Shown here: positions 449-11,955 of the stretch, in pieces
How the letters are laid out: each line of letters opens with the position of its first letter
Numbering within the stretch: position 1 is the first letter of the stretch
Source of the DNA: Desulfovibrio sp.
GTDB taxonomy: Bacteria > Desulfobacterota > Desulfovibrionia > Desulfovibrionales > Desulfovibrionaceae
NCBI GenBank assembly: GCA_020217165.1
Contig: JAIWOE010000119.1
Location: 1-11,955, forward strand
Length of the DNA stretch: 11,955 nucleotides
Reading direction: 5' to 3'
The notes under the pieces: model-generated
The model's input: only the letters and a program-made list of their open reading frames with translations
Database searches by the model: none
Told to the model about the DNA's origin: nothing
Position numbers and translations under genes: made by a program

Positions 449-524
449 GGGGACGTAGCTCAGCTGGGAGAGCGGCGCGTTCGCAACGCGTAGGTCGAGG
501 GTTCAAATCCCTTCGTCTCCACCA
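449..524 (+). tRNA. tRNA-Ala (anticodon CGC), CCA encoded
   Basis: The 76-nt sequence folds as a standard cloverleaf. The acceptor stem is GGGGACG (449-455) with CGTCTCC (514-520), discriminator A521 and encoded CCA 522-524. The D-arm is GCTC/GAGC. The anticodon stem GCGCG/CGCGT closes the loop TTCGCAA, so the anticodon is CGC, reading GCG (Ala). The T-arm is GAGGG-TTCAAAT-CCCTT, ending in a G-T pair. The third acceptor pair is G3:U70, the classic identity element for alanyl-tRNA synthetase, which independently supports the alanine call. An integrase gene starts 184 bases downstream, so the 3' end of this tRNA is the probable attachment site (attL side) of the island. The tRNA is intact. Confidence 0.97.
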
Positions 525-707: not shown

Positions 708-1936
708 ATGCCCCGCAAGGCCGTGCCCCTCAGCGATGCCAAGTTCGGGCCGCTAAGCCCCAGGACAAGCCCTACAAACTTTTCGACGGCCAAGGGCTGT
801 ATATCGAGATTTCCCCGGCCGGCGGCAAGCTCTGGCGCTGGAAATACTACTTCCAGGGCAAGGAGAAGCGGCTGGCCCTGGGCAAGTATCCGGCCGTGTC
901 CATTGCCGCGGCCAGGGGCCTAGTGAAGGGGCATCAGGAGGTTCTGGGTAGGGGCATGGACCCCGCCCAAGAGCGCGTAGGGGCATCTGCATCCCCGGCG
1001 GCTCCCCTGTTTGAGGAAGTGGCCCGGGAGTGGTTTGAAAAATTTCAGCCCAAGTGGACGCAGGGGCATGCCGAGACCGTCCTGGCCCGTCTGACAAACA
1101 ACGTCTTCCCCTATCTCAAGGATCGCCCCATCAGCACCATCACCGCCCCGGACCTGCTGCCCGTGTTGCGGCGCATCGAGGCCCGCGGGGCGATGGAGAC
1201 GGCCCACCGCGTCCGGGGCATATTGTCGCAAATCTTCCGCTACGGCGTCGCCTGTTGCTATTGCGACCGCGACCCCGCCGCCGACCTGCGAAGCGCCCTT
1301 GCCCCTGCCGTGGTCAGGCCCATGGCCGCCTTCACCACCGCCAAGGATGTGGCTGGCCTGCTGCGGGCCATTGATGACTTTCAGGGTACGCCGGTGGTCC
1401 GCGCCGCCTTGCAGCTCGCTCCCTTGACCATGGTCCGGCCCGGCGAACTCCGACATGCCGAGTGGGCGGAGTTCTCGTTCGACATTACCGACGCCCCCAC
1501 TTGGACCATACCGGCCAGCAAGATGAAGATGCGGCGCGACCACATTATCCCTCTCTCCCGACAGGCCGTGGCCATTCTGGTGGACCTCCTGCCCTTGACC
1601 GGGCACGGGCGATACGTGTTCCCATCGGCCCGCACGGCCTCCGGTTCCCCCAGTGAACGGCCCATGAGCGAAAACGCAGTCCTGGCCGCTCTGCGGCGCA
1701 TGGGCTTTTCCAGGGACGAGATGACCGGCCACGGCTTCCGGGCCATGGCCACCACCCTGCTGGTGGAAGCCGGCTGGGAGGCGGACCTGGTGGACCTGCA
1801 GCTTGCCCACGCCCCGGCCAACAAGGTCAAGGCCGCCTACAACCGCGCCAATCGCCTGGAGGATCGCCGCCGCCTCTTGCAGGCCTGGGCGGACATGCTG
1901 GACGGACTGCGGGGCAGGAATTGCGAGGGACGCTGA
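708..1936 (+). pseudogene. P4-family tyrosine recombinase (island integrase), frameshifted near its N-terminus
   Basis: The gene starts at ATG 708 after AGGAGG (698-703). It reads MPRKAVPLSDAKF, then loses frame near 746-750. From 752, one frame over, it reads AKPQDKPYKLFDGQGL, the expected DUF4102 arm-binding N-terminus of P4-type integrases, and stays open to TGA 1936. Restoring one C or G in the TTCGGG stretch yields about 409 residues, the usual family size. The catalytic set is complete: Arg (codon 1436, VRPGELR), His-x-x-Arg (1730 and 1739, HGFR), His (1808) and the nucleophile Tyr (1838, AAYNRA). A Lys in the beta-hairpin region (ASKMKMRRD) is also plausible. The position beside tRNA-Ala marks it as the island's integration/excision enzyme. 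As written, the frame after the shift could start only at an internal GTG (896), which would lack most of the arm-binding domain. Either the element is immobilised or a base is missing from the assembly. Confidence 0.9.
948..985 (+). repeat. Second GTAGGGGCA pair, inside the integrase gene
   Basis: GTAGGGGCA recurs at 948-956 and 977-985, again exactly 29 bases apart. A degenerate relative (GAAGGGGCA) lies at 925-933. The copies sit in the integrase coding sequence at the linker between the arm-binding and core domains, so coding constraint could explain them. The identical spacing to the upstream pair is what draws attention. Confidence 0.4.
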
Positions 1937-1987: not shown

Positions 1988-2049
1988 ACACGTCATCACG
2001 TCATACACGTCATGCGCCCAAGTCTGGCGCGGCCTGCGGAGCATGACGT
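1988..2049 (+). repeat. Iteron-like cluster A: three ACGTCAT direct repeats plus one inverted copy
   Basis: ACGTCAT occurs at 1990-1996, 1998-2004 and 2007-2013 (steps of 8 and 9 bases). An inverted ATGACGT lies at 2043-2049, 30 bases beyond the last direct copy. The block 1988-2012 matches the reverse complement of 4638-4662 at 24 of 25 positions. The inverted outlier is also shared, within the common string GAGCATGACGT. The sequence between the array and the outlier is not conserved, so the two parts look like separate protein sites kept at a fixed distance. The cluster begins 51 bases after the integrase stop. Confidence 0.8.
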
Positions 2050-2349
2050 TTTGCGGGATCACCTCATGGAGAGGGCGTGCTTCACAAAATGCACACCTAA
2101 AAAAAGGAGTGGACGCTGGCCGAGCGGGCAGCCTTTTGCTGCTTTCGGCAGCTGTTGACGGCCGTTGGCCGCGTATACAGCGTCTTGGTGTTGATTGACG
2201 CATGGTGATTTCGTCCCGTGCACACGAAATGCATGCGTTACGCTGTTGAAAACTTTTATTGTCACTGATGTGCAACAGCTTACTGTACTAACCTGGGAAA
2301 AGATCCGAGTCGATCTGGTGATCAATCCATTAAAATCACAGACTTTTAT

Positions 2350-2367
2350 TTGTGATCATTTTCACAA
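2350..2367. promoter_or_regulatory. Perfect CRP/HcpR-like palindrome TTGTGA-N6-TCACAA
   Basis: TTGTGA (2350-2355), TCATTT and TCACAA (2362-2367) form an exact 6-6-6 palindrome, matching the consensus half-sites of CRP-type regulators. As I recall, Desulfovibrio HcpR (a CRP/FNR-family regulator of the nitrosative-stress response) uses a very similar site. An overlapping inverted pair, ATCACA (2335-2340) and TGTGAT (2351-2356), adds a second dyad. No clear -35/-10 pair could be assigned next to it. The nearest downstream gene is alpA, about 360 bases away, so the target is uncertain. Confidence 0.45.
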
Positions 2368-2484
2368 TTGTGTATTTGAGGGCAGTCGTGATGTCTTCCT
2401 TGAGAGGATTATGCAAATATGCAATGCATTTTCTTGCTTAATACCAGTCGAAATTTGACCACAATCCAGAAGTGGCCCAATAAA

Positions 2485-2516
2485 AACGCCCCTCACGTTG
2501 GCGCGTGACGGGCGTT
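2485..2516 (-). terminator. Strong hairpin with U-run in minus-strand orientation
   Basis: AACGCCCCTCACG (2485-2497) pairs with CGTGACGGGCGTT (2504-2516) over 13 positions with one C-C mismatch, around the loop TTGGCG. TAAAA lies just left of the stem, so read on the minus strand the hairpin is followed by a run of T. The plus-strand side has only TTCCTT, making it a good minus-strand terminator and a weak plus-strand one. No minus-strand gene is evident to its right. It may insulate the alpA operon or end an antisense RNA. Confidence 0.6.
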
Positions 2517-2727
2517 CCTTGGGGCCTCACCTCTGGGGGCATTGGCGTGCCTGGCAGAGGATGCGGAGACGATGCTCCTTGGCCTCCAGTTCCAATGGAT
2601 TTTCATGTAGCAAGTTTTTTTTCCCCAGTCCAATGAAAGTTGTGTAAACCGCTTTGGATTGGCGTCTCGCTTTCCTGCCCGGTGCTGCCTGCCCCCGGAC
2701 AACCTCCCGAGTAGGGAAGGAGTCTTC

Positions 2728-3021
2728 ATGCAGGCATCTGCAAGCCGTTTGCTGCGCCTTCGCGATGTATTGGCCCGAGTCCCTGTTTCCAAGTCCACCT
2801 GGTTTGCCGGTATCAAGGCCGGCCGGTTTCCCAAGCCCATTGCGGTGGGGGAACGCGCCCGCGCCTGGCGGGAAGCCGACATCAACGCCGTGTGCGACGG
2901 CACCTTCCTGGCCGAAACAGCACCAGCCGCCCCGCCGGCCGCTGCTGCAGCATCCCGGCCTCGCCGGGGCAGACCGCCCAAGAATGTCGTGACCTCCAGC
3001 CCCAGGGAGGCCGCCCGGTGA
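2728..3021 (+). CDS. alpA: AlpA-family DNA-binding regulator with AT-hook-like tail
   Basis: This 97-residue protein starts at ATG 2728 behind AAGGAG (2717-2722, 5 bases away). Residues 1-55 follow the AlpA/MerR-like helix-turn-helix pattern: LLRLRDVLARVPVSKST, then W-F-AGIKAGRFPKPI, and RARAWREADINA at the end of the wing. AlpA, named from prophage CP4-57, controls excision and integration genes in satellites, usually as an activator of integrase or excisionase transcription. The C-terminus (61-97) is an Ala/Pro linker ending in RPRRGRPPK (77-85), whose GRP core flanked by basic residues matches an AT-hook. It could hold the protein on AT-rich DNA such as the block just upstream. The stop overlaps the next gene's start (GTGA at 3018-3021), so the two are translationally coupled. 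The family assignment is firm; the role here is inferred. Confidence 0.88.
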   Translation: MQASASRLLRLRDVLARVPVSKSTWFAGIKAGRFPKPIAVGERARAWREADINAVCDGTFLAETAPAAPPAAAAASRPRRGRPPKNVVTSSPREAAR

Positions 3022-4505
3022 CAGCCATCCTCCTGCAGGACGCCCGTGAGAAGTATCTGGAGCGGCGGCGCGTGGGGGAGGAGCTGGTGGACAGGTCACA
3101 GCAAGACGATGCATCCCCTGCGTCGTCCTGGCTGCCTGCGCCCCCACCCTTGCCCGTGCACGTCTTCCCCGAATCCATCCAACACATGCTGCAGACGGCG
3201 GCAGAGGCCTTCACCGTGCCCCTGGAAGCGCCAGCCTGCTGCCTCCTGGCCCTCACCGGGGCCTGCATCGGCCGCACCCGCGGCCTGCAGATCAAACCCG
3301 GCTGGATCGAGCACCCCAACCTGTATGTGGCGTTGGTGGCCCGCTCCGGCATGGGCAAGAGCCCCTGCGCCAAGGCCTTCTTTGCCCCGCTTTGGGAGGC
3401 GGAAAAAGCCTGCACCCAACAGTGGCAGGAAGCCAATGTCCAGTGGGAAGCCGACGTCGCGGTCTGGGAGGCCCAGAAGCGAAGCAAAGAGCCCAGCACC
3501 TCACCCCGGCCGGCACCGCCGCCGCGGCAACAGCTCATCACCGACGACGCCACGGTGGAGAGTCTTACGGACATCTTCGCCGACAACCCCCGCGGCCTGC
3601 TCTGGTATCGGGACGAGCTGGCCGGGTTGATCCTGGACATGGACAAATACAGCAACGGCCCCCAGGGTTCCACCAAAACACGATTGATGACGGCCTATGA
3701 CTCTGGCCCCTGGAAGGTCTCGCGGGTGAACAAGGCCCGCACGGGATTCATCCCCGCGGCCTGCCTCTCCCTCTTCGGGACCATCCAACCTAGCGTGTTG
3801 GCAGACATCTTCACCGGCAAGGACGCTGCATCCGGCCTGCTGGCCCGCGTATCCTTCATCCGCGCGCCCAGGGACAAGCCGTCCCTCTGGACGGAAACCG
3901 CCTTCAACGGCCCCGCCCGCGCCACCCTGGTACAGCTCGTGGCCGGCCTGCTTCGGCTGGACTTTCACGAAGACGCCCCCATCCATCTGACCCTGGAGCC
4001 CGACGCCAAGCAGCTTTTCATTGCCTGGCATGACGACCTGGCCCGCGAGCAGTGGCTGGGCGATGGGGAGGATCAGGACTCCCTGCTCTCCAAACTCCGG
4101 GGCCAGTGCCTGCGGCTGGCCCTGCAGCTGCATTGTCTGGAGGACGTGCTGGCCGGACGGGACTGCATCGGCTGCATCCGCGCCGCCACCATGGCCGGGG
4201 CCATCGAGTTGGCCAACTGGTTGCGCGGGCATCAGGAACAGTGCTGGACGCTCCTGGGTCAGGCGGGACGCGTCCAGGACCCGCCACCCCTGCATCGCCG
4301 GGTGGCCCTGGCCGTGCTGGGGTTGGCAAAGGACATCCAGGGCGATGTCCAGGGCGGCCGGCTAGCTACGGCGGCCATCCACGCGCGCGTCAACGCCACC
4401 CTGGACGCCCGTTTCCAGGTGGACAGCCGGGCCGTGGGCAAGGCTTGCAGCAAGATCGGCCTGCGTTCCAGCCGGAACATGGATGGCGGGGGGGTGGCAT
4501 ATTGA
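3018..4505 (+). CDS. DUF3987-like P-loop protein (island replication/helicase-like)
   Basis: I chose GTG 3018, with AGGGAGG (3004-3010) seven bases upstream and a 4-base overlap with alpA, giving 495 residues. An N-terminal stretch of about 60 residues contains a Pro-rich linker. A core like that of DUF3987 proteins follows: EAFTVPLEAPACCLLALTGA leads to NLYVALVARSGMGKS, with a Walker A motif at 110-115 (S-G-M-G-K-S; Lys114). Then comes LLWYRDELAGLI, with a Walker-B-like Asp199-Glu200, and a charged C-terminal region. DUF3987 proteins are common in integrative islands beside AlpA and small primases. They are thought to act in element replication as primase-helicase-like ATPases, but no reaction is established. 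In phage P4 the alpha protein combines primase, helicase and origin binding; here those jobs may be divided between this protein and the downstream primase. No truncation is seen. Confidence 0.8.
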   Translation: MTAILLQDAREKYLERRRVGEELVDRSQQDDASPASSWLPAPPPLPVHVFPESIQHMLQTAAEAFTVPLEAPACCLLALTGACIGRTRGLQIKPGWIEHPNLYVALVARSGMGKSPCAKAFFAPLWEAEKACTQQWQEANVQWEADVAVWEAQKRSKEPSTSPRPAPPPRQQLITDDATVESLTDIFADNPRGLLWYRDELAGLILDMDKYSNGPQGSTKTRLMTAYDSGPWKVSRVNKARTGFIPAACLSLFGTIQPSVLADIFTGKDAASGLLARVSFIRAPRDKPSLWTETAFNGPARATLVQLVAGLLRLDFHEDAPIHLTLEPDAKQLFIAWHDDLAREQWLGDGEDQDSLLSKLRGQCLRLALQLHCLEDVLAGRDCIGCIRAATMAGAIELANWLRGHQEQCWTLLGQAGRVQDPPPLHRRVALAVLGLAKDIQGDVQGGRLATAAIHARVNATLDARFQVDSRAVGKACSKIGLRSSRNMDGGGVAY

Positions 4506-4600
4506 TGCCCAGGCCCTGACCCATTGCCGGGCCATCGCCGGCATTGCGCCGACGTATCCGGCCGGTCAATCCATGACATGATGCAGTGAGCACGGGGAAG

Positions 4601-4662
4601 ACGTCATGCTCGCAACCGCATATCATCACAGAAAAAGTGACGTGTATGACGTAATGACGTGT
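4601..4662 (-). repeat. Iteron-like cluster B, mirror image of cluster A
   Basis: ATGACGT-type units lie at 4637-4643 (first base G), 4646-4652 and 4654-4660 (steps of 9 and 8). An oppositely oriented ACGTCAT lies at 4601-4607, 30 bases before the first unit. Read on the minus strand, the order, step sizes and the 30-base gap equal those of cluster A at 1988-2049. The array ends 11 bases before the primase ATG (4674), so a bound protein would also be expected to affect primase expression. Together with cluster A it brackets the alpA-DUF3987 operon. Confidence 0.8.
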
Positions 4663-4673
4663 GCGGGGCGCGC

Positions 4674-5659
4674 ATGAACGTCTTCCCCATTGACCAGATG
4701 CGCCGGGCTGGCAGCACCGCCGGGGGCGAGTGGGCCGGCCCGTGCCCGCGCTGCGGCGGGAGGGATCGCTTCCGCGTCTGGCCAGACCATCCCCGCGGCA
4801 AGGGCGGCCGCTTCTATTGCCGGGGCTGCGGCTGGACGGGTGACGGCATCCAGTACCTGCGGGACGCCTGCGGGGCCAGCTATGCCGAGGCCTGTCAAGC
4901 CGTGGGCTGCCCAGCCGCTGCAGGACGGGGATGGATGCGCCAACGCCCGCACCGCCCAGCCCTTCCGCCCAATGGAAGGAAGCCGCCGCGGCCTTCGTGG
5001 CCCAGGTGGCCGGCCCATCGGACTACAGCCGCGCCCGTGGCCTGGAGGACGCCACGGTCCAGGCCCTGCGCCTGGGCTGGAATCCGCGGGATTGCTTCGT
5101 GGATCGCCCCGCCTGGGGCCTGCCGCCGGGCAAGCGGCTCTGGCTTCCCGCCGGGCTGGTCATCCCGACAATTCCTACATTGGAGCAGGGCGAGGTGCTG
5201 GCCCTCAAGATTCGACGCCTGGCCGCCGACGGGCCAAAATATGTGGCCATCCCCGGCGGCAGCACCGCGCCCATGGTCCTGGCCCGCGCGCCGGCAGGCA
5301 GCCCCGCCAAACCCATCATCATAGTAGAAGGCGAGCTGGACGCCATCCTCCTGGCCCAGGCCGCCCGCGACTTGGTGACGGTCCTGGCCCTGCGCAGCGT
5401 GTCCAACAAGCCCGACGCCGCCACCTGCGCTCTGCTGCACGCCGCCCCGGCCATCCTTTGCGCCCTGGACTTCGACCGCGCCGGCCAGGCCGCCTGGCCC
5501 TGGTGGCACGACACATTCCGCGCCCGCTACCACCCCCCAGCCACGGGCAAGGACGTGGGGGACATGCTCGCGGCGGGGGTGGACGTCAGGGAATGGGTAG
5601 GGTGGGGGCTGGAGGGGATATTGCCTACTGCTGCAATCAAGGCGAGAATCCCTCGTTGA
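4674..5659 (+). pseudogene. P4-type zinc-finger/TOPRIM primase, split by an apparent one-base loss
   Basis: ATG 4674 opens a zinc-ribbon domain: CPRC (Cys24, Cys27), then GRDRFRVWPDHPRGKGGRFYC, then CRGC (Cys49, Cys52) and GWTGDGIQYLRD. This is the template-binding finger of small phage and island primases. The frame then drifts into Pro/Arg-rich nonsense after about codon 80. The continuation is one frame over: PSAQWKEAAAAFVAQ, LGWNPRDCF, a KYVAIPGG loop, and a TOPRIM core with VEGELDA (Glu codon 5327) and DFDRAG (Asp codons 5468 and 5474). It ends at TGA 5657-5659. Restoring one base between roughly 4905 and 4965 gives about 328 residues. ATG 4931 could start the TOPRIM half separately, but no ribosome site stands out and the first frame does not stop nearby. 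A break or assembly error is therefore likelier than two genes. There is no Shine-Dalgarno before 4674; GTG 4659 is an alternative start. Confidence 0.82.
5530..5592 (+). repeat. 63-bp direct repeat, copy 1 (primase 3' end)
   Basis: This copy matches 6980-7042 at 61 of 63 positions, at a constant offset of 1450 bases. The differences are A5539/G6989 and C5587/A7037. It encodes the primase C-terminal motif HPPATGKDVGDMLAAGVDVR. The pair brackets the hydrolase block. Confidence 0.92.
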
Positions 5660-5709: not shown

Positions 5710-5783
5710 CTAGGTCCAACAACCAGCGATGCGCCCTGGTAAAGGCTGCGAGGCGCATCGTGCCCTCTCCCCGGAGATCCGCC

Positions 5784-6923
5784 ATGATCCTGCCGCGTCG
5801 CCAGTTCCTCTCCCTCCTGACTGGGACTGCGGCCTGGAGCCTGCTTCCCTCTCCCCTGCATGCCGCCTCCAGGGACATCTCTGCCGCTGGGCTGCTGGCC
5901 GAGTTCCCCACCGTGCCCGGGCTGGGCTGGTCCGTCTTCGACACGGAAGAGTCCCTCCGCATTGAGACGGCGGGCATGACCCTGGCCCTAGGGCCGGACG
6001 GCGTTGAGGCTGGCACCCGATTCCAAGCATGTTCCATCAGCAAGCCCCTGGCTGCAGCCCTCACCCTGCTTTTATGGCGTGAAGGCTTCGTGCAGCTTGA
6101 CCAGCCCGTCAATGAGATGCTGCGCAGGTGGACACTTCCTGGGGGCGATGCCGTCACCATACGGCTGCTGTTGAGCCACGGAGCCGGTGTGAACGTTGCG
6201 GGTTTTCCAGGCTATGCCCCCGGTGCCCCCTTGCCGGATCTGGATGCCATCCTTGATGGTCGCCCTCCTGCCAACACCCCGCCCGTGCAGGTGGAGTCGC
6301 CACCCGCCGGGGTGTGGTCCTATTCCGGCGGAGGCTACCAGGTTATAGAGCGGCTGCTCGGGGACGTCACCGGGCTTGATTTTCCGACCCTGCTCGCGGA
6401 CCGCCTCCTCGGCCCGCTGGGCATGACAGATTCAGGCTGTTTCCAGCCGCCGTCTGAAGCACTGGTTCAAACGCCTTCGGCCCTGGCCCGCGGGCACGAT
6501 CTCCATGGCGTCCCCCTGCCTGGCGGTTGGCATGTCTATCCCGAGCACGCCGCCGCGGGAGTGTGGTCCTCGCCTCGGGATCTCGCCCGTTTCGGCCGGG
6601 CCATCCTCCGGGGCTTGGGCGGCAAGGGGCTCCTGCGGGATGTGGCCGAGGCCATGACCACGCCTGTCACCGAATCCTGGGCCCTGGGCCTCAAGCATGT
6701 GGCCGACGCCGGCCGCAACCTCTGCCTGCATCTGGGCAGCAACGCGGGCTTCCGGTGCCTGCTGCTCCTAGATTTAAGCGCCGGCAAGGGACTCGCCGTG
6801 ATGACCAATGGCGACGGCGGGGAATTGCTTTTGGACGCGGCGGCGCACGCCCTCTCCGCCCGGGAGGGCTGGCCCCTGCCCGAGGGATTCGTCCCCACCG
6901 ACCGCGGCTACGGAGGGCCCTGA
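5784..6923 (+). CDS. Tat-exported serine hydrolase of the beta-lactamase (class C/esterase) family
   Basis: ATG 5784 follows GGAGA (5773-5777) by six bases and opens a clear Tat signal peptide. PRRQFLSLL has twin Arg at residues 5 and 6; a hydrophobic stretch and a likely AxA-type cleavage at LHAAS follow. The 379-residue product carries the serine beta-lactamase-fold motifs. SISK gives nucleophile Ser84 and Lys87. YSG (Tyr180) is followed by GGYQVIERLL. HLGSN (His316) stands in place of the KTG box. The HxG form is usual in esterase- or peptidase-like members rather than true beta-lactamases, so antibiotic hydrolysis is not implied. It should act in the periplasm on an ester or amide substrate that cannot be read from sequence. 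It is cargo-like: unrelated to its replication-gene neighbour and bracketed by a 63-bp direct repeat. GTG 5760 is a less likely start because it would bury the Tat motif. Confidence 0.88.
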   Translation: MILPRRQFLSLLTGTAAWSLLPSPLHAASRDISAAGLLAEFPTVPGLGWSVFDTEESLRIETAGMTLALGPDGVEAGTRFQACSISKPLAAALTLLLWREGFVQLDQPVNEMLRRWTLPGGDAVTIRLLLSHGAGVNVAGFPGYAPGAPLPDLDAILDGRPPANTPPVQVESPPAGVWSYSGGGYQVIERLLGDVTGLDFPTLLADRLLGPLGMTDSGCFQPPSEALVQTPSALARGHDLHGVPLPGGWHVYPEHAAAGVWSSPRDLARFGRAILRGLGGKGLLRDVAEAMTTPVTESWALGLKHVADAGRNLCLHLGSNAGFRCLLLLDLSAGKGLAVMTNGDGGELLLDAAAHALSAREGWPLPEGFVPTDRGYGGP

Positions 6924-6979
6924 TCTGCAGCATCACGCGGAGGCTTTCTGTGGCTCCTGGCGTGCGAGCGCTTGCGCCC

Positions 6980-7042
6980 CCACCCCCCGGCCACGGGCAA
7001 GGACGTGGGGGACATGCTCGCGGCGGGGGTGGACGTAAGGGA
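6980..7042 (+). repeat. 63-bp direct repeat, copy 2 (after the hydrolase)
   Basis: This is the partner of 5530-5592 (61 of 63 identical). It begins 57 bases past the hydrolase stop. Flanking bases on both sides differ from copy 1, so the edges of the repeat are sharp. Confidence 0.92.
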
Positions 7043-7091
7043 TCTGCAGGCAATCATAGAATTGCAATGGGTTAAGATGGATTATCGATGA
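6980..7091 (+). pseudogene. Orphan C-terminus of a second primase
   Basis: The repeat reads in one frame as HPPATGKDVGDMLAAGVDVR, identical to the primase tail at 5531-5590. It continues differently as DLQAIIELQWVKMDYR before TGA 7089-7091, whereas copy 1 continues EWVGWGLEGI. Upstream, the same frame back to the hydrolase stop (LACERLRPHPP) has no start codon or TOPRIM motif, so this cannot be a working gene. It is either the displaced tail of the primase at 4674 or the end of a lost related primase. The divergent ending makes the second, or a recombination between two relatives, slightly more attractive. Confidence 0.65.
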
Positions 7092-7106
7092 GTAATGATG
7101 TATAAG
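7078..7106 (+). promoter_or_regulatory. Possible promoter of the restriction-modification gene
   Basis: TATAAG (7101-7106) matches five of six bases of the -10 consensus. A weak TGGATT (7078-7083) lies 17 bases upstream. This would give a leader of roughly 95 bases before the chosen start at 7208. The -35 is poor, so confidence is low. Confidence 0.35.
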
Positions 7107-7122
7107 CCAGGCACCTCGGTTA

Positions 7123-7132
7123 TCTCCACCAC
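7123..7132 (+). repeat. Ten-base copy of the tRNA-Ala 3' end (weak attR candidate)
   Basis: TCTCCACCAC repeats bases 516-525, which are the last acceptor-stem bases, discriminator and CCA of tRNA-Ala plus one base. Attachment cores are usually longer and begin further inside the tRNA, so the match may be chance. If real, the island would be 524-7132 and the restriction gene would lie outside it. Confidence 0.2.
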
Positions 7133-7207
7133 CTAGCCAAGCCCCGTCAAATCCGCTACCCAGTCCATGCCCATATTGCCATGGACCACTTGATTGACGA
7201 GGCCGCC

Positions 7208-10200
7208 ATGACCGCACTGCAGACCCTGTTGGATTCCTTTCGCCACGCCGCCGTCACCGAACGCGAGAAGGGGACCTACTTTGAAGCGCTGATCCTCTGC
7301 TACCTGCGCCATGAGGCCAGCTACCGCGACCTCTACAGCCAGGTCTGGACATACGCCGACTGGGCCAGGGAGCAGGGCCTGGACAAGCGGGACACCGGCA
7401 TTGACCTGGTGGCCAGGACCAGCGGCACCGGCGAATTCCACGCCATCCAGTGCAAGCTGTATGCGGAAGACCACAAGATCGCCAAGAGCGACATCGACAG
7501 CTTCTTCACCGCATCGGGCAAGAAGCCCTTTACCCATCGCCTCATTGTCTGCTCCACGAATCGTTGGAGTGAACACGCCGAAGACGCCTTGCGGGACCAG
7601 CAGCCGCCCGTCAGCAAGATTGACCTCTTCGACCTGGAAAACAGCCAGATCGACTGGTCCAGATACCAGCCCAAGGCCGCGCCGGTCCTCAAGGAAAAGA
7701 AGCAGCCCCGCAAGCATCAGCAAGACGCCATTGCCGCCGTGGTCCAGGGCCTGGCGGATGCGGACCGCGGCAAGCTCATCATGGCCTGCGGCACGGGCAA
7801 GACCTTCACCAGCCTCAAGATTGCCGAGACCATGGCCGGCAGGGGCAGGCGCGTGCTCTTCCTGGTGCCCAGCCTGGCCTTGCTCTCTCAGACCCTGACG
7901 GAATGGACCCAGGAAAGCGCCACCCCGCTGCACAGCTTTGCCGTTTGCTCCGACAGCGACGTGGGCAAGAAGCGCAAGAAAGACGACGACAGCGTGCAAA
8001 CCTTTACCCATGAGTTGCGCTTCCCCGCCACCACCGAGCCCGCCCGCCTGGCGGACGAGATGGCCAAACGCCACGACGCCCAGCACATGAGCGTGGTCTT
8101 TTCCACCTACCACTCCATCGACGTCCTGCACCGCGCCCAGCAGGAGCATGGTCTGGCGGATTTTGACCTGATCATCTGCGACGAAGCCCACCGCACCACC
8201 GGCGCCACCTTTGGCGACGACGACGAAAGCGCCTTCGTCAAAGTGCACAACGCCGAATATCTTCGGGCCTCCAAACGGCTGTACATGACCGCCACGCCGC
8301 GCATCTACGGCGACGCGGCCAAGGCCACCGCGGAAACCCAGCACGTGACCCTTTGCTCCATGGATGACGAAGCCCTGTATGGCCGGCAGCTCTACGTCCT
8401 CACCTTCTCCGAGGCGGTCAAGCGGCAGCTGCTGGTGGATTACAAGGTGCTGGTGCTGGCCGTAGAGGAAAAACACATCAGCCGGCGGCTGCAGGAGCTG
8501 CTCAGGGACGAGAACAACCAGCTGGTGGTGGACGACGCCGCCAAAATCGTCGGCTGCTGGAAGGCCCTGGCCAAGCAGGGCGTGACCAACGACCTGCCCG
8601 ACGACGACGCCCCCATGCGCCGGGCCGTGGCCTTCTGCCAGGTCATCGACCCCTCTCCCAAGGCCCGGACCCACAAGGTCAGCTCGCGAAACATTGCCAG
8701 CATGTTCCAAAAGGTGGTGGAAGCCTACCAGCGGTCTGAAAAGCTCGACCCCGCCAGCCAGCTGGTCTGCGAAGCCGAGCATGTGGACGGCGGCATGAAC
8801 GCCAGCGAGAAGGAAGCCAAGCTCGCCTGGCTCAAGGCCGAGGCGCCGGAGAATACCTGCCGCATCCTCAGCAACGTCCGCTGTCTTTCGGAAGGGGTGG
8901 ACGTCCCCGCCCTGGACGCCGTGCTCTTCCTCACCCCGCGCAACTCCCAGGTGGACGTGGTCCAGTCCGTGGGCCGGGTCATGCGCATGGCGCCGGGCAA
9001 ACAACGTGGCTACGTCATCCTGCCCGTGGTCATTCCCGCCGGCATGGAACCCCATGAAGCCCTGAACGACAACAAAGTCTACAAAGTTGTCTGGCAGGTG
9101 CTGCAGGCCCTGCGTTCCCACGACGACCGCTTTGACGCCATGATCAACAAGCTGGACCTCATCGGCAAGGACCCCCGCAAAATGGAGGTCATCGCCATCA
9201 TAGACAAGGCGCCCAAAAAGCGCGAGGCATGCGCCAAAATCAAGGACAACACCGGCCGCAACAGCTTCAGGTTAGGCAAGCGGGCCAACGGGCCATTCCA
9301 GCAGGACCAGCATGTCGTTGATTTTCTCATCAGTGACATCGAGCGCGCCATCTACGCCAAACTGGTGCAGAAGTGCGGCAACCGGCATCACTGGGAAGAC
9401 TGGGCCAACGACATCGCCAAGATCGCCCGCACGCATATTGACCGCATCACCGGCATCCTGGAGAATCCCGCCCACGAAGAGGAGCGCGCCGCCTTTGCCG
9501 CCTTTGCCGCGGAATTGCGCGACGACCTGAACCCCAGCATCACCGATGCGGAAATCATCGAGATGCTGGCCCAGCACCTCATCACCAAACCCGTCTTTGA
9601 CGCGCTGTTCGAGGGCTACAGCTTCGCCAGCCACAATCCCATTTCCCAGGCCATGCAGGGCGTGCTGGACCTCTTGCAGGAGCACCGGCTGGACAAGGAA
9701 GCCGAGACCCTGGAAGCCTTCTACGATAGCGTGAAGCTGCGGGCCGAAGGCATCGACAGCGCCGCGGGCAAGCAAAAGATTGTGGTGGAACTCTACGACA
9801 AGTTCTTCCGCAACGCCTTCCCCCGCATGACCGAGCGCCTGGGCATTGTCTACACCCCCGTGGAAGTGGTGGACTTCATCATCCACAGCGTCAACGACGT
9901 GCTGCAGCAGGAGTTCGGCCAGACCCTGGGCAGCCAGGGCGTGCACATCCTGGACCCCTTCACCGGCACCGGCACCTTCATCACCCGCCTGTTGCAAAGC
10001 GGGCTCATCACCCCGGACGAATTGCCCCATAAATACCGGCACGAAATCCACGCCAACGAGCTGGTGCTCCTGGCCTACTACATTGCGGCCATCAACATCG
10101 AGGCCGCCTACCACGAGCTTGCGGGGGGCGACTACCAGCCCTTCCCCGGCATCTGCCTCACGGATACCTTCCAGCTCCACGAAGGCGACGACCTCTTGAA

Positions 10201-11955
10201 CACCCACCTGGCGGACAACAGCACCCGCCGCACCCGGCAGAAAAAACTGGATATCCGAGTCATCCTCGGCAACCCGCCCTATTCCGTGGGACAGGCCGAT
10301 GCCAACGACAACAACCAGAACGTGACCTACCCCCTGCTGGACAACCGCATCCGCGACACCTACGCCGCCCGCTCCACGGCCACCAACAAGAACGGACTTT
10401 ACAACAGCTATATCCGGGCCATCCGCTGGGCTTCGGATCGCATCGAGACAAGCGGCGTCATCGCCTTTGTCACCAACGCCGGCTTTGTGGATGCCAACGC
10501 CGCCGACGGCATGCGCAAGTGCCTGGCCAGGGAGTTTGCCAGCCTCTACGTCTTCCACCTGCGGGGCAATCAGCGCACGTCCGGCGAACGCTCACGCAAG
10601 GAGGGCGGCAAGATTTTCGGCAGTGGCAGCCGCGCGCCCATCGCCATTTCCGTGCTGGTGAAGAACCCCGACGCCGCCCGGCAGGGCCAGATATTCTTCT
10701 GCGACATCGGCGACTATTTGACCCGCGAGGAAAAGCTGGCGCGGATCGCGGCCTACGGCAGCATCGCCGGCATTGCCCAGGCCGGTGACTGGCAGGTAAT
10801 CACTCCCGACGAGCATGGGGACTGGCTCACGCAGCGGGACGCAGGCTTTTCGGAGTTCCTGGCCATGGGCAGCAAGGAGGCCACCACCGCGCCGGCGCTG
10901 TTCCACAACTACTCTTCCGGCGTGAAGACCAAACGTGACGCCTGGTGCTTCAACGCCTCCAAGTCCAGACTGACATCTACCATGCGTCGCATGATAGACT
11001 TCTACAACAGCGAAGTGACGCGATTTGAGCAGGCCCATGCCGGCAAGGAGAGAAAGCAGCGCGAGGTAGCGGTGGATGATTTTATCAATACCGATCCCAC
11101 ATTGTTCAGTTGGTCGCGAGCCTTGAAACAGGATGTCGTGAAAGCAAAGCGCTTCAACTTCGATCCTGTCGCTTCGGCTCCCAGCTTATACCGACCTTTC
11201 TTCAAGCAATGGCTGTACTACACGCGTCCATTCAGCGAAGAGATTGGTCAAATGTCCCGCATCTTCCCCGATGCCGAGGCGGACAATGTGGTGATTTGCG
11301 TCTCAGGGCCTGGTTGTATCTCTGGATTTACCGCACTGATTTCGAATATTCCTGTCGAGCTGTGCATCTCTGCAATGAAAGGCGGAAGCCAGTGCTTCCC
11401 ACTCTACCTGTTCGACGAGCTCAAAAACTCGCCCAAGGAGGTCGCGACAGAAGTTCCCTTGCCGGGCGTTGCAAAAGACGCTGCTGCCCCCATGCATCGT
11501 ACGCGCACCCGGCGCGAGGCCATCACCGACGCCGGGCTGGCCCATTTCCAGGCCGCCTATCCCGGCGAGACCATCGGCAAGGAAGATATTTTCTACTATG
11601 TGTATGGTCTGCTCCATTCGCCGGACTACCGCGAACGCTACGCCGACAACCTGGTCAAGGAGCTGCCCCGCATCCCCTGCGTCAAGACCGCGGCGGACTT
11701 CTGGGCCTTCAGCAAGGCCGGCCGCAGCCTGGCCCATTGGCATCTCAACTATGAGCGTGTCGCCCCCTATCCCCTGACCATGCAGGTCGCCGGCAATGCC
11801 CCCCTCACCGACGCCGACTACCGCGTGGAAAAGATGAAGTACGGCAAGCAGGGCAAGGAGACCGACCGCAGCATCCTCATCTACAACCACAGGATCACCC
11901 TCACGGGCATTCCCCTGGCGGCCTACGAGTACGTGGTCAACGGCAAGCCGGCCCT
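7208..11955 (+). CDS. Single-chain Type ISP restriction-modification enzyme (nuclease-helicase-methyltransferase), 3' end outside window
   Basis: One frame is open from ATG 7208 (GAGG at 7199-7202, five bases upstream) to the last base: 1582 codons without a stop. Upstream ATG 7181 is an alternative start without a ribosome site. Domains run in Type ISP order (LlaGI/LlaBIII-like, about 1570-1650 residues). First is an Mrr-like nuclease, EREKGTYFE, DTGIDLVA (Asp66) and QCK (Gln81, Lys83). Then an SF2 helicase: Walker A MACGTGKT (192-199), DEAH (325-328), TATP (361-364), QSVGRVMR (586-593). Then a gamma N6-adenine methyltransferase: DPFTGTGTF (916-924), NPPY (1022-1025). A target-recognition/C-terminal region follows (EDIFYYVYGLLHSPDYRERYA). 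Such enzymes methylate one strand of an asymmetric site, translocate along DNA and cut when two converge; no separate specificity subunit is needed. All motifs are intact. Bases 10921-11460 are only about 53% G+C, against about 70% alongside. Perhaps 50-60 residues are missing. Confidence 0.93.
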   Translation, partial: MTALQTLLDSFRHAAVTEREKGTYFEALILCYLRHEASYRDLYSQVWTYADWAREQGLDKRDTGIDLVARTSGTGEFHAIQCKLYAEDHKIAKSDIDSFFTASGKKPFTHRLIVCSTNRWSEHAEDALRDQQPPVSKIDLFDLENSQIDWSRYQPKAAPVLKEKKQPRKHQQDAIAAVVQGLADADRGKLIMACGTGKTFTSLKIAETMAGRGRRVLFLVPSLALLSQTLTEWTQESATPLHSFAVCSDSDVGKKRKKDDDSVQTFTHELRFPATTEPARLADEMAKRHDAQHMSVVFSTYHSIDVLHRAQQEHGLADFDLIICDEAHRTTGATFGDDDESAFVKVHNAEYLRASKRLYMTATPRIYGDAAKATAETQHVTLCSMDDEALYGRQLYVLTFSEAVKRQLLVDYKVLVLAVEEKHISRRLQELLRDENNQLVVDDAAKIVGCWKALAKQGVTNDLPDDDAPMRRAVAFCQVIDPSPKARTHKVSSRNIASMFQKVVEAYQRSEKLDPASQLVCEAEHVDGGMNASEKEAKLAWLKAEAPENTCRILSNVRCLSEGVDVPALDAVLFLTPRNSQVDVVQSVGRVMRMAPGKQRGYVILPVVIPAGMEPHEALNDNKVYKVVWQVLQALRSHDDRFDAMINKLDLIGKDPRKMEVIAIIDKAPKKREACAKIKDNTGRNSFRLGKRANGPFQQDQHVVDFLISDIERAIYAKLVQKCGNRHHWEDWANDIAKIARTHIDRITGILENPAHEEERAAFAAFAAELRDDLNPSITDAEIIEMLAQHLITKPVFDALFEGYSFASHNPISQAMQGVLDLLQEHRLDKEAETLEAFYDSVKLRAEGIDSAAGKQKIVVELYDKFFRNAFPRMTERLGIVYTPVEVVDFIIHSVNDVLQQEFGQTLGSQGVHILDPFTGTGTFITRLLQSGLITPDELPHKYRHEIHANELVLLAYYIAAINIEAAYHELAGGDYQPFPGICLTDTFQLHEGDDLLNTHLADNSTRRTRQKKLDIRVILGNPPYSVGQADANDNNQNVTYPLLDNRIRDTYAARSTATNKNGLYNSYIRAIRWASDRIETSGVIAFVTNAGFVDANAADGMRKCLAREFASLYVFHLRGNQRTSGERSRKEGGKIFGSGSRAPIAISVLVKNPDAARQGQIFFCDIGDYLTREEKLARIAAYGSIAGIAQAGDWQVITPDEHGDWLTQRDAGFSEFLAMGSKEATTAPALFHNYSSGVKTKRDAWCFNASKSRLTSTMRRMIDFYNSEVTRFEQAHAGKERKQREVAVDDFINTDPTLFSWSRALKQDVVKAKRFNFDPVASAPSLYRPFFKQWLYYTRPFSEEIGQMSRIFPDAEADNVVICVSGPGCISGFTALISNIPVELCISAMKGGSQCFPLYLFDELKNSPKEVATEVPLPGVAKDAAAPMHRTRTRREAITDAGLAHFQAAYPGETIGKEDIFYYVYGLLHSPDYRERYADNLVKELPRIPCVKTAADFWAFSKAGRSLAHWHLNYERVAPYPLTMQVAGNAPLTDADYRVEKMKYGKQGKETDRSILIYNHRITLTGIPLAAYEYVVNGKPA

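Follow-up and report, generated by a model that had tools for sequence, protein, structure and literature searches.

Two clusters of short repeats, mirror images of each other and 2.6 kb apart, bracket the alpA and DUF3987 genes of a genomic island in Desulfovibrio sp., and the question raised by this locus is what the paired sites are for and which protein recognises them. The island was studied in a window of 11,955 nucleotides (the whole stretch analysed; contig JAIWOE010000119.1 of assembly GCA_020217165.1), which is one contig of a genome in 340 contigs. The clusters, called A and B, are probably replication-origin iterons of the DUF3987 protein, a predicted initiator helicase, and on the sequence evidence this reading was given a probability of about 0.78. 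Origin-type iterons are well supported because of the position right after the initiator gene, the recurrence of clusters behind DUF3987 genes and published precedents. The features concerned are:

1990..2049, + strand: cluster A, with ACGTCAT at 1990, 1998 and 2007 and an inverted copy at 2043
2200..2500, no strand: AT-rich non-coding stretch, about 37-45% GC
2728..3021, + strand: alpA (Phage_AlpA; PF05930 at 4.7e-10 for the longer frame 2659-3021, the start at 2728 being our choice)
3018..4505, + strand: DUF3987 protein, predicted helicase/initiator (PF13148 at 1.1e-61; phrog_2373, DNA helicase)
4573..4579, - strand: degenerate unit with one mismatch, adjoining cluster B and kept in the sister island described below
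4601..4660, - strand: cluster B, with ACGTCAT at 4654 and 4646 and ACGTCAC at 4637 (-), and an inverted copy at 4601 (+)
4674..5659, + strand: zinc-ribbon/Toprim primase (PF08273, PF13155)

In both clusters the units follow one another in steps of 8 and 9 bp, and the third unit and the inverted unit are separated by 36 bp, start to start. An earlier note, made from the sequence alone, had described two clusters of ACGTCAT-type units with these steps, an inverted unit and opposite orientation about 2.6 kb apart, and an exact-unit scan together with shuffled sequences bore this out. None of 1000 dinucleotide shuffles contained a 7-mer three times together with an inverted copy less than 70 bp away, an arrangement seen once in the window (cluster A; cluster B was not counted because one of its units has a mismatch); any tripled 7-mer appeared in 7 of 1000 shuffles, and ACGTCAT with at most one mismatch occurred 52 times in the window against 19.3 +/- 4.2 expected. 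Clusters A and B are real, non-chance features. The single difference that the note counted between the 25-bp arrays stands if they are taken as ACACGTCAT..ACGTCA, and rises to two when unit 3 is taken to its last base. The sequence between array and inverted unit is, as it had said, not shared between A and B, although an 11-bp GAGCATGACGT around the inverted unit is. The distance of 11 bases (4663-4673) from the end of cluster B to the primase ATG was likewise correct; an in-frame GTG at 4659 overlaps the array. The AT-rich stretch at 2200-2500, which begins about 150 bp after cluster A, is a possible unwinding element.

The composite pattern was found in 2 of 288 genomes of the family, namely the window's own (both clusters) and G213 of the same genus (cluster A), and is thus not scattered over the family's chromosomes. 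The sister island in G213 (locus L036) has the same core, both clusters and the same 36-bp spacing between third and inverted unit, and carries GTG in place of the primase ATG; its cluster B was found by alignment and misses the exact pattern because one unit has changed. Identity to the window was 90-98% over 1901-2080, which includes cluster A, versus 29-75% over the adjoining non-coding positions 2081-2500, and cluster A has therefore been kept although it is non-coding, conserved like coding DNA amid diverged spacer. The sister island is also AT-rich in the equivalent region (L036 4900-5300, 30-47% GC). A search of IMG/VR for the exact array pattern gave 0 matches.

Cluster B is an array of short direct repeats adjoining an initiator gene, as in iteron-type origins, and this position recurs behind other DUF3987 genes. 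A search for the DUF3987 protein in 149 family genomes gave matches in 31, and one for PF13148 in 199 genomes of the class gave matches in 75. In total, 71 loci were scored, comprising 59 of 60 stretches fetched from 116 places in the class search (mostly near-full-length matches, chosen regardless of repeats), 11 of 12 from the family search, and the window. L152 (frameshifted) and L045 were excluded. L048-L062 were unscored; several of L048-L055 seem to duplicate contigs already represented among the genome loci, and ten were inspected by eye. For L038 and L043 we estimated where the domain ends, and the frame of L043 was reset by hand. The score was the largest set of 8-mer copies (at most one mismatch, both strands) within 160-bp scoring windows. 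Scoring windows with at least six copies made up 25.4% of those at 300-449 bp after the domain end, 4.2% at 450-599 bp, 3.4% at 600-749 bp and 0-1.9% in the other bins within +/-3.3 kb. Counted per locus at 250-550 bp past the domain, at least six copies were present in 26 of 71 loci and 16 of 1369 control bins, with corresponding figures of 14/71 and 3/1369 for at least seven copies and 32/71 and 99/1369 for at least five; under a looser rule, 39/71 loci and 139/677 control regions qualified. The best post-domain scoring window beat all others of its locus in 26/71 cases and at least tied in 46/71. Given these per-locus counts and ties, the positional rule holds for a large minority of DUF3987 genes rather than for every one. 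Among the loci whose proteins are nearest to that of the window, the scores were 5, 6, 9, 6, 7, 7, 8, 8, 8, 4, 6 and 7 for the window, L036-L044, L046 and L047, respectively.

DUF3987 genes with such repeats were also found on plasmids. Relatives of the protein occurred on 37 plasmid records (mostly cyanobacterial among the 30 matches listed), of which 16, including 13 cyanobacterial ones, were chosen for spread of host and size and not for repeat content; 14 of these had downstream sequence (L157 and L159 had none), and domain ends were extrapolated from the tblastn match. Scoring windows with at least five copies made up 43, 50 and 48% of the bins from 150 to 599 bp past the domain, 12% of the next bin and 0-9% elsewhere. 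At 11 of the 14 loci the best scoring window starting 182-550 bp past the domain had at least six copies, and L156, L164 and L168 failed this six-copy rule in the expected place. The plasmid repeats often lie inside a long 3' part of the gene. An origin of the repeats as protein repeats was considered and rejected, because in many loci of the first set the repeats are found beyond the stop codon, and because both sets have inverted copies. On one 7.6-kb plasmid the DUF3987 gene was the only one with a Pfam match among the five genes scanned. On the Bacteroides plasmid L168, genes for a helix-turn-helix protein, DUF3987 and DUF6371 follow one another next to mobilisation genes, which resembles the gene order of the window; a repeat cluster was not detectable there. 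In viral collections, relatives were found at seven loci with 22-30% identity in IMG/VR, and three matches at 24-26% among INPHARED phages.

What carries over to more distant islands is the array with an inverted unit at similar spacing, found in several of them, and not the word ACGTCAT, which is replaced by AACGCCAC in L037, ACACGTCC in L038, AGGTGTCA in L039 and ACCGTCGG in L041. Same-strand neighbours stood exactly 9 bp apart in 74 of 110 cases, versus 36 of 130 in control clusters. L037 and L038 both have three units at 9 bp with an inverted unit 37 and 39 bp on, respectively; counting these two, L037, L038, L043 and L129 (a two-unit array) have the inverted unit 36-39 bp beyond the array, which matches A and B, and L039, L093, L095 and L099 have it at 24-50 bp. 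L037 packs an array, one inverted unit, two further units and a mirror-image array into about 120 bp, and judged by their sequence the window clusters look like an origin of this type with its halves moved 2.6 kb apart. A GTC core shared by units was noticed and is not claimed, several positive loci being without it. GC content at +250 to +449 past the domain was on average 2-4 points below the locus mean in the 27 repeat-bearing loci and 2-6 points below it in the 14 plasmid loci, a small dip.

The earlier note had named AlpA, the DUF3987-like protein and the primase as candidate recognisers of what it took to be origin/crr-like sites or paired operators. The origin-like character is supported by position, recurrence and precedent; as to the recogniser, the DUF3987 protein is favoured, because some loci with clusters yielded no AlpA, or no separate primase, in the neighbours scanned, and AlpA and the primase were rejected as general binders on this gene content. 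in L039, MobC and a relaxase come after AlpA and DUF3987, and four scanned neighbours gave no primase match; in L041, a Prim-Pol domain is fused to DUF3987, with no AlpA match in two upstream neighbours; L093 has a Toprim fusion to DUF3987 and no AlpA match among the proteins scanned; L037 has a primase, and the protein before its DUF3987 gene is without a Pfam match; and L153 gave no AlpA or primase match in five genes. These scans covered part of the frames at each of the five loci, and DUF3987 was the one gene common to all loci with scanned neighbours. DUF3987 proteins have been described as predicted helicases, and winged helices have been suggested to recognise origins (PMC5862659). In the structural model of the window protein (predicted local distance difference test score 84.5), residues 424-495 at the C-terminus form a helix-strand-helix-helix-strand-strand pattern, that is, a predicted winged helix. 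Foldseek against the PDB returned one match below E 0.001, an MCM helicase, followed mostly by further MCM proteins with the Cch protein of SCCmec (staphylococcal cassette chromosome mec) in fourth place; the fold assignment is weak because the TM-scores were only about 0.3. Against predicted viral proteins, 54 matches fell below 0.001, and phage primases, helicases or DUF3987 proteins were numerous among them. Sequence searches of the PDB gave best E-values of 0.19 for DUF3987 and 0.39 for AlpA (against an AlpA-family regulator).

The note had also drawn a parallel with phage P4, which needs crr as a second, separate alpha-bound region besides ori, and this is a reasonable, if tentative, analogy for two distant sites. 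The repeat sequence and layout of P4 differ from those of the window clusters, and its alpha protein joins primase and helicase in one protein, whereas the window has separate genes and a DUF3987 initiator; an alpha-type fused primase-helicase with ori and crr, the mark of P4-like satellites, is absent from the window. A likeness to the fold predicted here is that alpha binds origin repeats by a winged helix (PMC4234260). One source lists crr and the P4 origin as separate parts (PMC9942202), and another names the ori site 'ccr' (PMC6092414). Among the closest known systems are the phage-inducible chromosomal islands (PICIs) of Gram-negative and Gram-positive bacteria, including the Staphylococcus aureus pathogenicity islands (SaPIs). 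They combine int, an alpA-type regulator and initiator/primase genes, and their origin, which contains two iteron sets, directly adjoins the 3' end of the initiator gene; in PICIs these sets are described as always flanking an AT-rich region, and plasmid maintenance depends on rep and ori (PMC6092414). The window has the int, alpA and initiator/primase module by Pfam and two repeat sets flanking an AT-rich stretch, but they are 2.6 kb apart with alpA and the DUF3987 gene also between them, only B lies 3' of the initiator gene, and the initiator is a DUF3987 protein with a separate Zn-ribbon/Toprim primase. In SCCmec, an initiator helicase likewise has a putative origin array just downstream of its gene, a 23-bp stretch that includes three direct repeats of 5 nt and is bound by Cch2 through its C-terminal domain (PMC7581432); its length would by analogy fit 9-bp steps; Cch2 differs in its Primase_Cterm-type domain, its primase partner and the single array reported, with no mirrored distant copy. 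In the crenarchaeal plasmid pRN1, too, the origin lies a short way downstream of an initiator whose C-terminus forms a winged helix, but this origin is a stem-loop of about 100 nt, needed for replication and without iteron structure (PMC4234260), unlike the iteron-like clusters of the window. Phage-inducible chromosomal minimalist islands (PICMIs) of marine Vibrionaceae (Vibrio) have int, alpA and a primase of DUF3987 or DUF5906 type among their markers, with fis mandatory (PMC10803314). Three of these four markers (int, alpA, DUF3987) were found in the window by Pfam, and Fis had no Pfam match among the seven window proteins scanned; the word 'iteron' does not occur in the main text of that paper (PMC10803314). 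The kind of system is thus already known, since SaPI/PICI Rep and SCCmec Cch2 work through iterons near the initiator gene. The new parts are the DUF3987 class, the positional rule and the mirrored split layout; unusual here are the mirrored cluster 2.6 kb off beyond the initiator operon and the hairpin, treated below, that holds B and the primase start. In the literature searched, no description of DUF3987 origins and no paper with both 'DUF3987' and 'iteron' was found.

From the repeats, their conservation in the sister island, their recurrence behind DUF3987 genes and the predicted winged helix, all computed here, we infer binding, hexamer loading, origin activity and any contact between A and B. 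The C-terminal winged helix of the DUF3987 initiator helicase would bind the iterons of both clusters, B being placed just past the initiator gene, where many DUF3987 genes carry clusters. Three units about 9 bp apart and the inverted unit would seat the helicase in opposite orientations, possibly for hexamer loading, and the neighbouring Zn-ribbon/Toprim primase would then prime. Cluster A, the second mirror copy 2.6 kb upstream beside the AT-rich stretch, would either join B in a bipartite origin or act as a copy-control or regulatory site. A half-origin or crr-like role for A was put a little short of even odds, and an operator or copy-control role was judged doubtful. Still less likely is an arrangement in which two half-origins face each other across the initiator operon and are looped together at initiator loading, with B nested in a hairpin that hides the primase start; with a half-origin so placed beside the primase, origin state and primase synthesis would be coupled.

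Three further features bear on other explanations:

449..524, + strand: tRNA-Ala (CGC), island insertion site on the left (attL) side; blastn homology with the sister island begins within the tRNA 3' end
896..1936, + strand: tyrosine integrase, in-frame C-terminal part (PF22022, PF00589)
4594..4688, + strand: extended imperfect hairpin with 11-bp perfect outer arms, holding cluster B and the primase start (from fold z-scores)

If A and B were paired operators, used by the DUF3987 protein (or AlpA) to repress the alpA-DUF3987 operon and the primase or to couple their transcription, while replication uses some other site, the place of A between int and alpA and that of B 11 bases before the primase ATG, with a transcript that folds over this start, would make sense. 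However, A is about 680 bp from the alpA ATG, a simple promoter scan for sigma-70-like sites alone found nothing in 1880-2780, and like clusters follow DUF3987 genes in other contexts, with a relaxase downstream (L039), with fused primases (L041, L093) and on small plasmids, so that this explanation was considered rather improbable. Control of primase expression by cluster B is nonetheless possible, and the hairpin over the start may add to it. Binding of the repeats by AlpA/Xis or by the integrase for excision would accord with the match of the AlpA protein to PHROG families described as excisionase and transcriptional regulator and with the nearness of A to int, but is very improbable. Arm-type sites of an integrase are expected between the tRNA and int, where a separate AGGGGCA repeat is in fact present, whereas A and B are about 1.5 and 4.1 kb, respectively, from the attachment tRNA, and arm-type sites were rejected for A and B on this position; moreover, like clusters occur at L041, L093, L037 and L153 without an AlpA match among the proteins scanned, some neighbouring frames being unscanned.

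The hairpin itself could be what matters at B, as an RNA or single-stranded DNA structure serving primase translation control or a pRN1-like stem-loop origin, with the identity of the repeats secondary. The transcript of 4585-4700 folded at -51.7 kcal/mol (z -5.04) and that of the sister island at -53.9 kcal/mol (z -5.74), with z -4.93 and -4.62, respectively, when folded as DNA, and the primase start is in the right arm. Nine positions differ between the two islands, four of them in paired columns: in three pairs the bases change but pairing is maintained, and a fourth pair is present in G213 alone. Of random substitution sets of the same type, 2.3% folded as well as the G213 hairpin. These are only two sequences, however, and pairs were counted on a structure predicted for just one of the two. 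Cluster A has the same units and equal conservation but little fold excess (z -0.87 in the window, -2.39 in G213). Hairpins of inverted iterons reached z of about -6 in L037 and L038 and -2.1 to -2.6 in L039, L041 and L046, and the hairpin at B may partly be a by-product, because inverted iterons alone give hairpins in L037 and L038. A role resting mainly on the hairpin was held to be extremely improbable.

Several observations weigh against replication-origin iterons as the reading of A and B. In the expected place, 45 of the 71 loci stayed below six copies, including the window (5) and L044 (4), and with the post-domain scoring window best or tied in only 46/71, another one was better elsewhere. 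Several of the 26 positive loci share a word and are not independent (near-identical words in L039/L040/L122-L124, L041/L043, L093/L096 and L036/window). Among the plasmids, 4 of 14 loci also had a scoring window with at least six copies elsewhere and only 18 of 49 steps were of 9 bp, a spacing that the control regions favour too (36/130) and that is a multiple of codon length. Cluster B itself is about 52% GC. When 22 loci were scanned with their own word (to about 3.5 kb before the domain in L093-L151 and further in L036-L047), only the sister island had an A-like distant second cluster, so the role of A rests on two genomes; in L111, a cluster of three same-strand copies lies 1.6 kb upstream of the main cluster. 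The window's copy of the island may be inactive, because its integrase and primase frames appear broken: the integrase frame seems interrupted upstream and the primase is split into two overlapping frames (to 5012; from 4931), while G213 has an intact integrase and a single primase frame of 335 aa. Decay or an assembly error could account for this. Initiator binding and replication at A and B are, finally, deduced from sequence and a model.

The order of genes in the window is tRNA-Ala, tyrosine integrase, a long intergenic region, alpA, DUF3987, primase, a beta-lactamase-family gene (5760-6923) and a type ISP restriction enzyme, which is incomplete since the contig stops inside it; the right end of the island is beyond the window. 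No packaging gene was matched among the window proteins scanned. The sister island is located at a tmRNA gene, and five other islands checked are at different tRNA or tmRNA genes. When the tRNA end was searched as a second attachment copy, one match each was obtained in G000 and G213, that in G213 lying away from the island. An AGGGGCA/GGGGGCA repeat with inverted copies is present between the tRNA or tmRNA and the integrase gene at about 640-690 in the window (spotted by eye), 3341-3388 in L036 and 1859-1917 in L037, and GTGAGTA copies follow shortly after the tRNA or tmRNA in L038 (1776-1826) and L040 (2724-2771); these tRNA-proximal repeats are possible integrase arm or Xis sites. Past the primase, the cargo of the two islands (window 5760-11955, L036 8510-16001) had no blastn match except a 63-bp repeat, part of L036 being masked, and the G213 cargo includes ParA-like and macro-domain-like frames, named by eye from the translation. 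The 63-bp stretch comes from the 3' end of the primase gene (5536-5598) and is repeated downstream of the beta-lactamase-family gene (6978-7040), where the extra copy is 92% identical to the G213 primase end; cargo may have been acquired by recombination between related islands. A protein of 404 aa, P0057, joins an 84%-identical DUF3987 part to a type ISP C-terminal domain and is possibly the product of a rearranged island.

DUF3987 genes are common on islands and plasmids, being present in 75 of 199 genomes of the class and on 37 plasmid records, and the rule described here, repeats a few hundred bp past the domain and often 9 bp apart, allows candidate origins to be located by sequence only in a fair share of these elements. 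With its distant mirrored copy, the island would offer a naturally divided origin in which contact between two initiator complexes could be probed.

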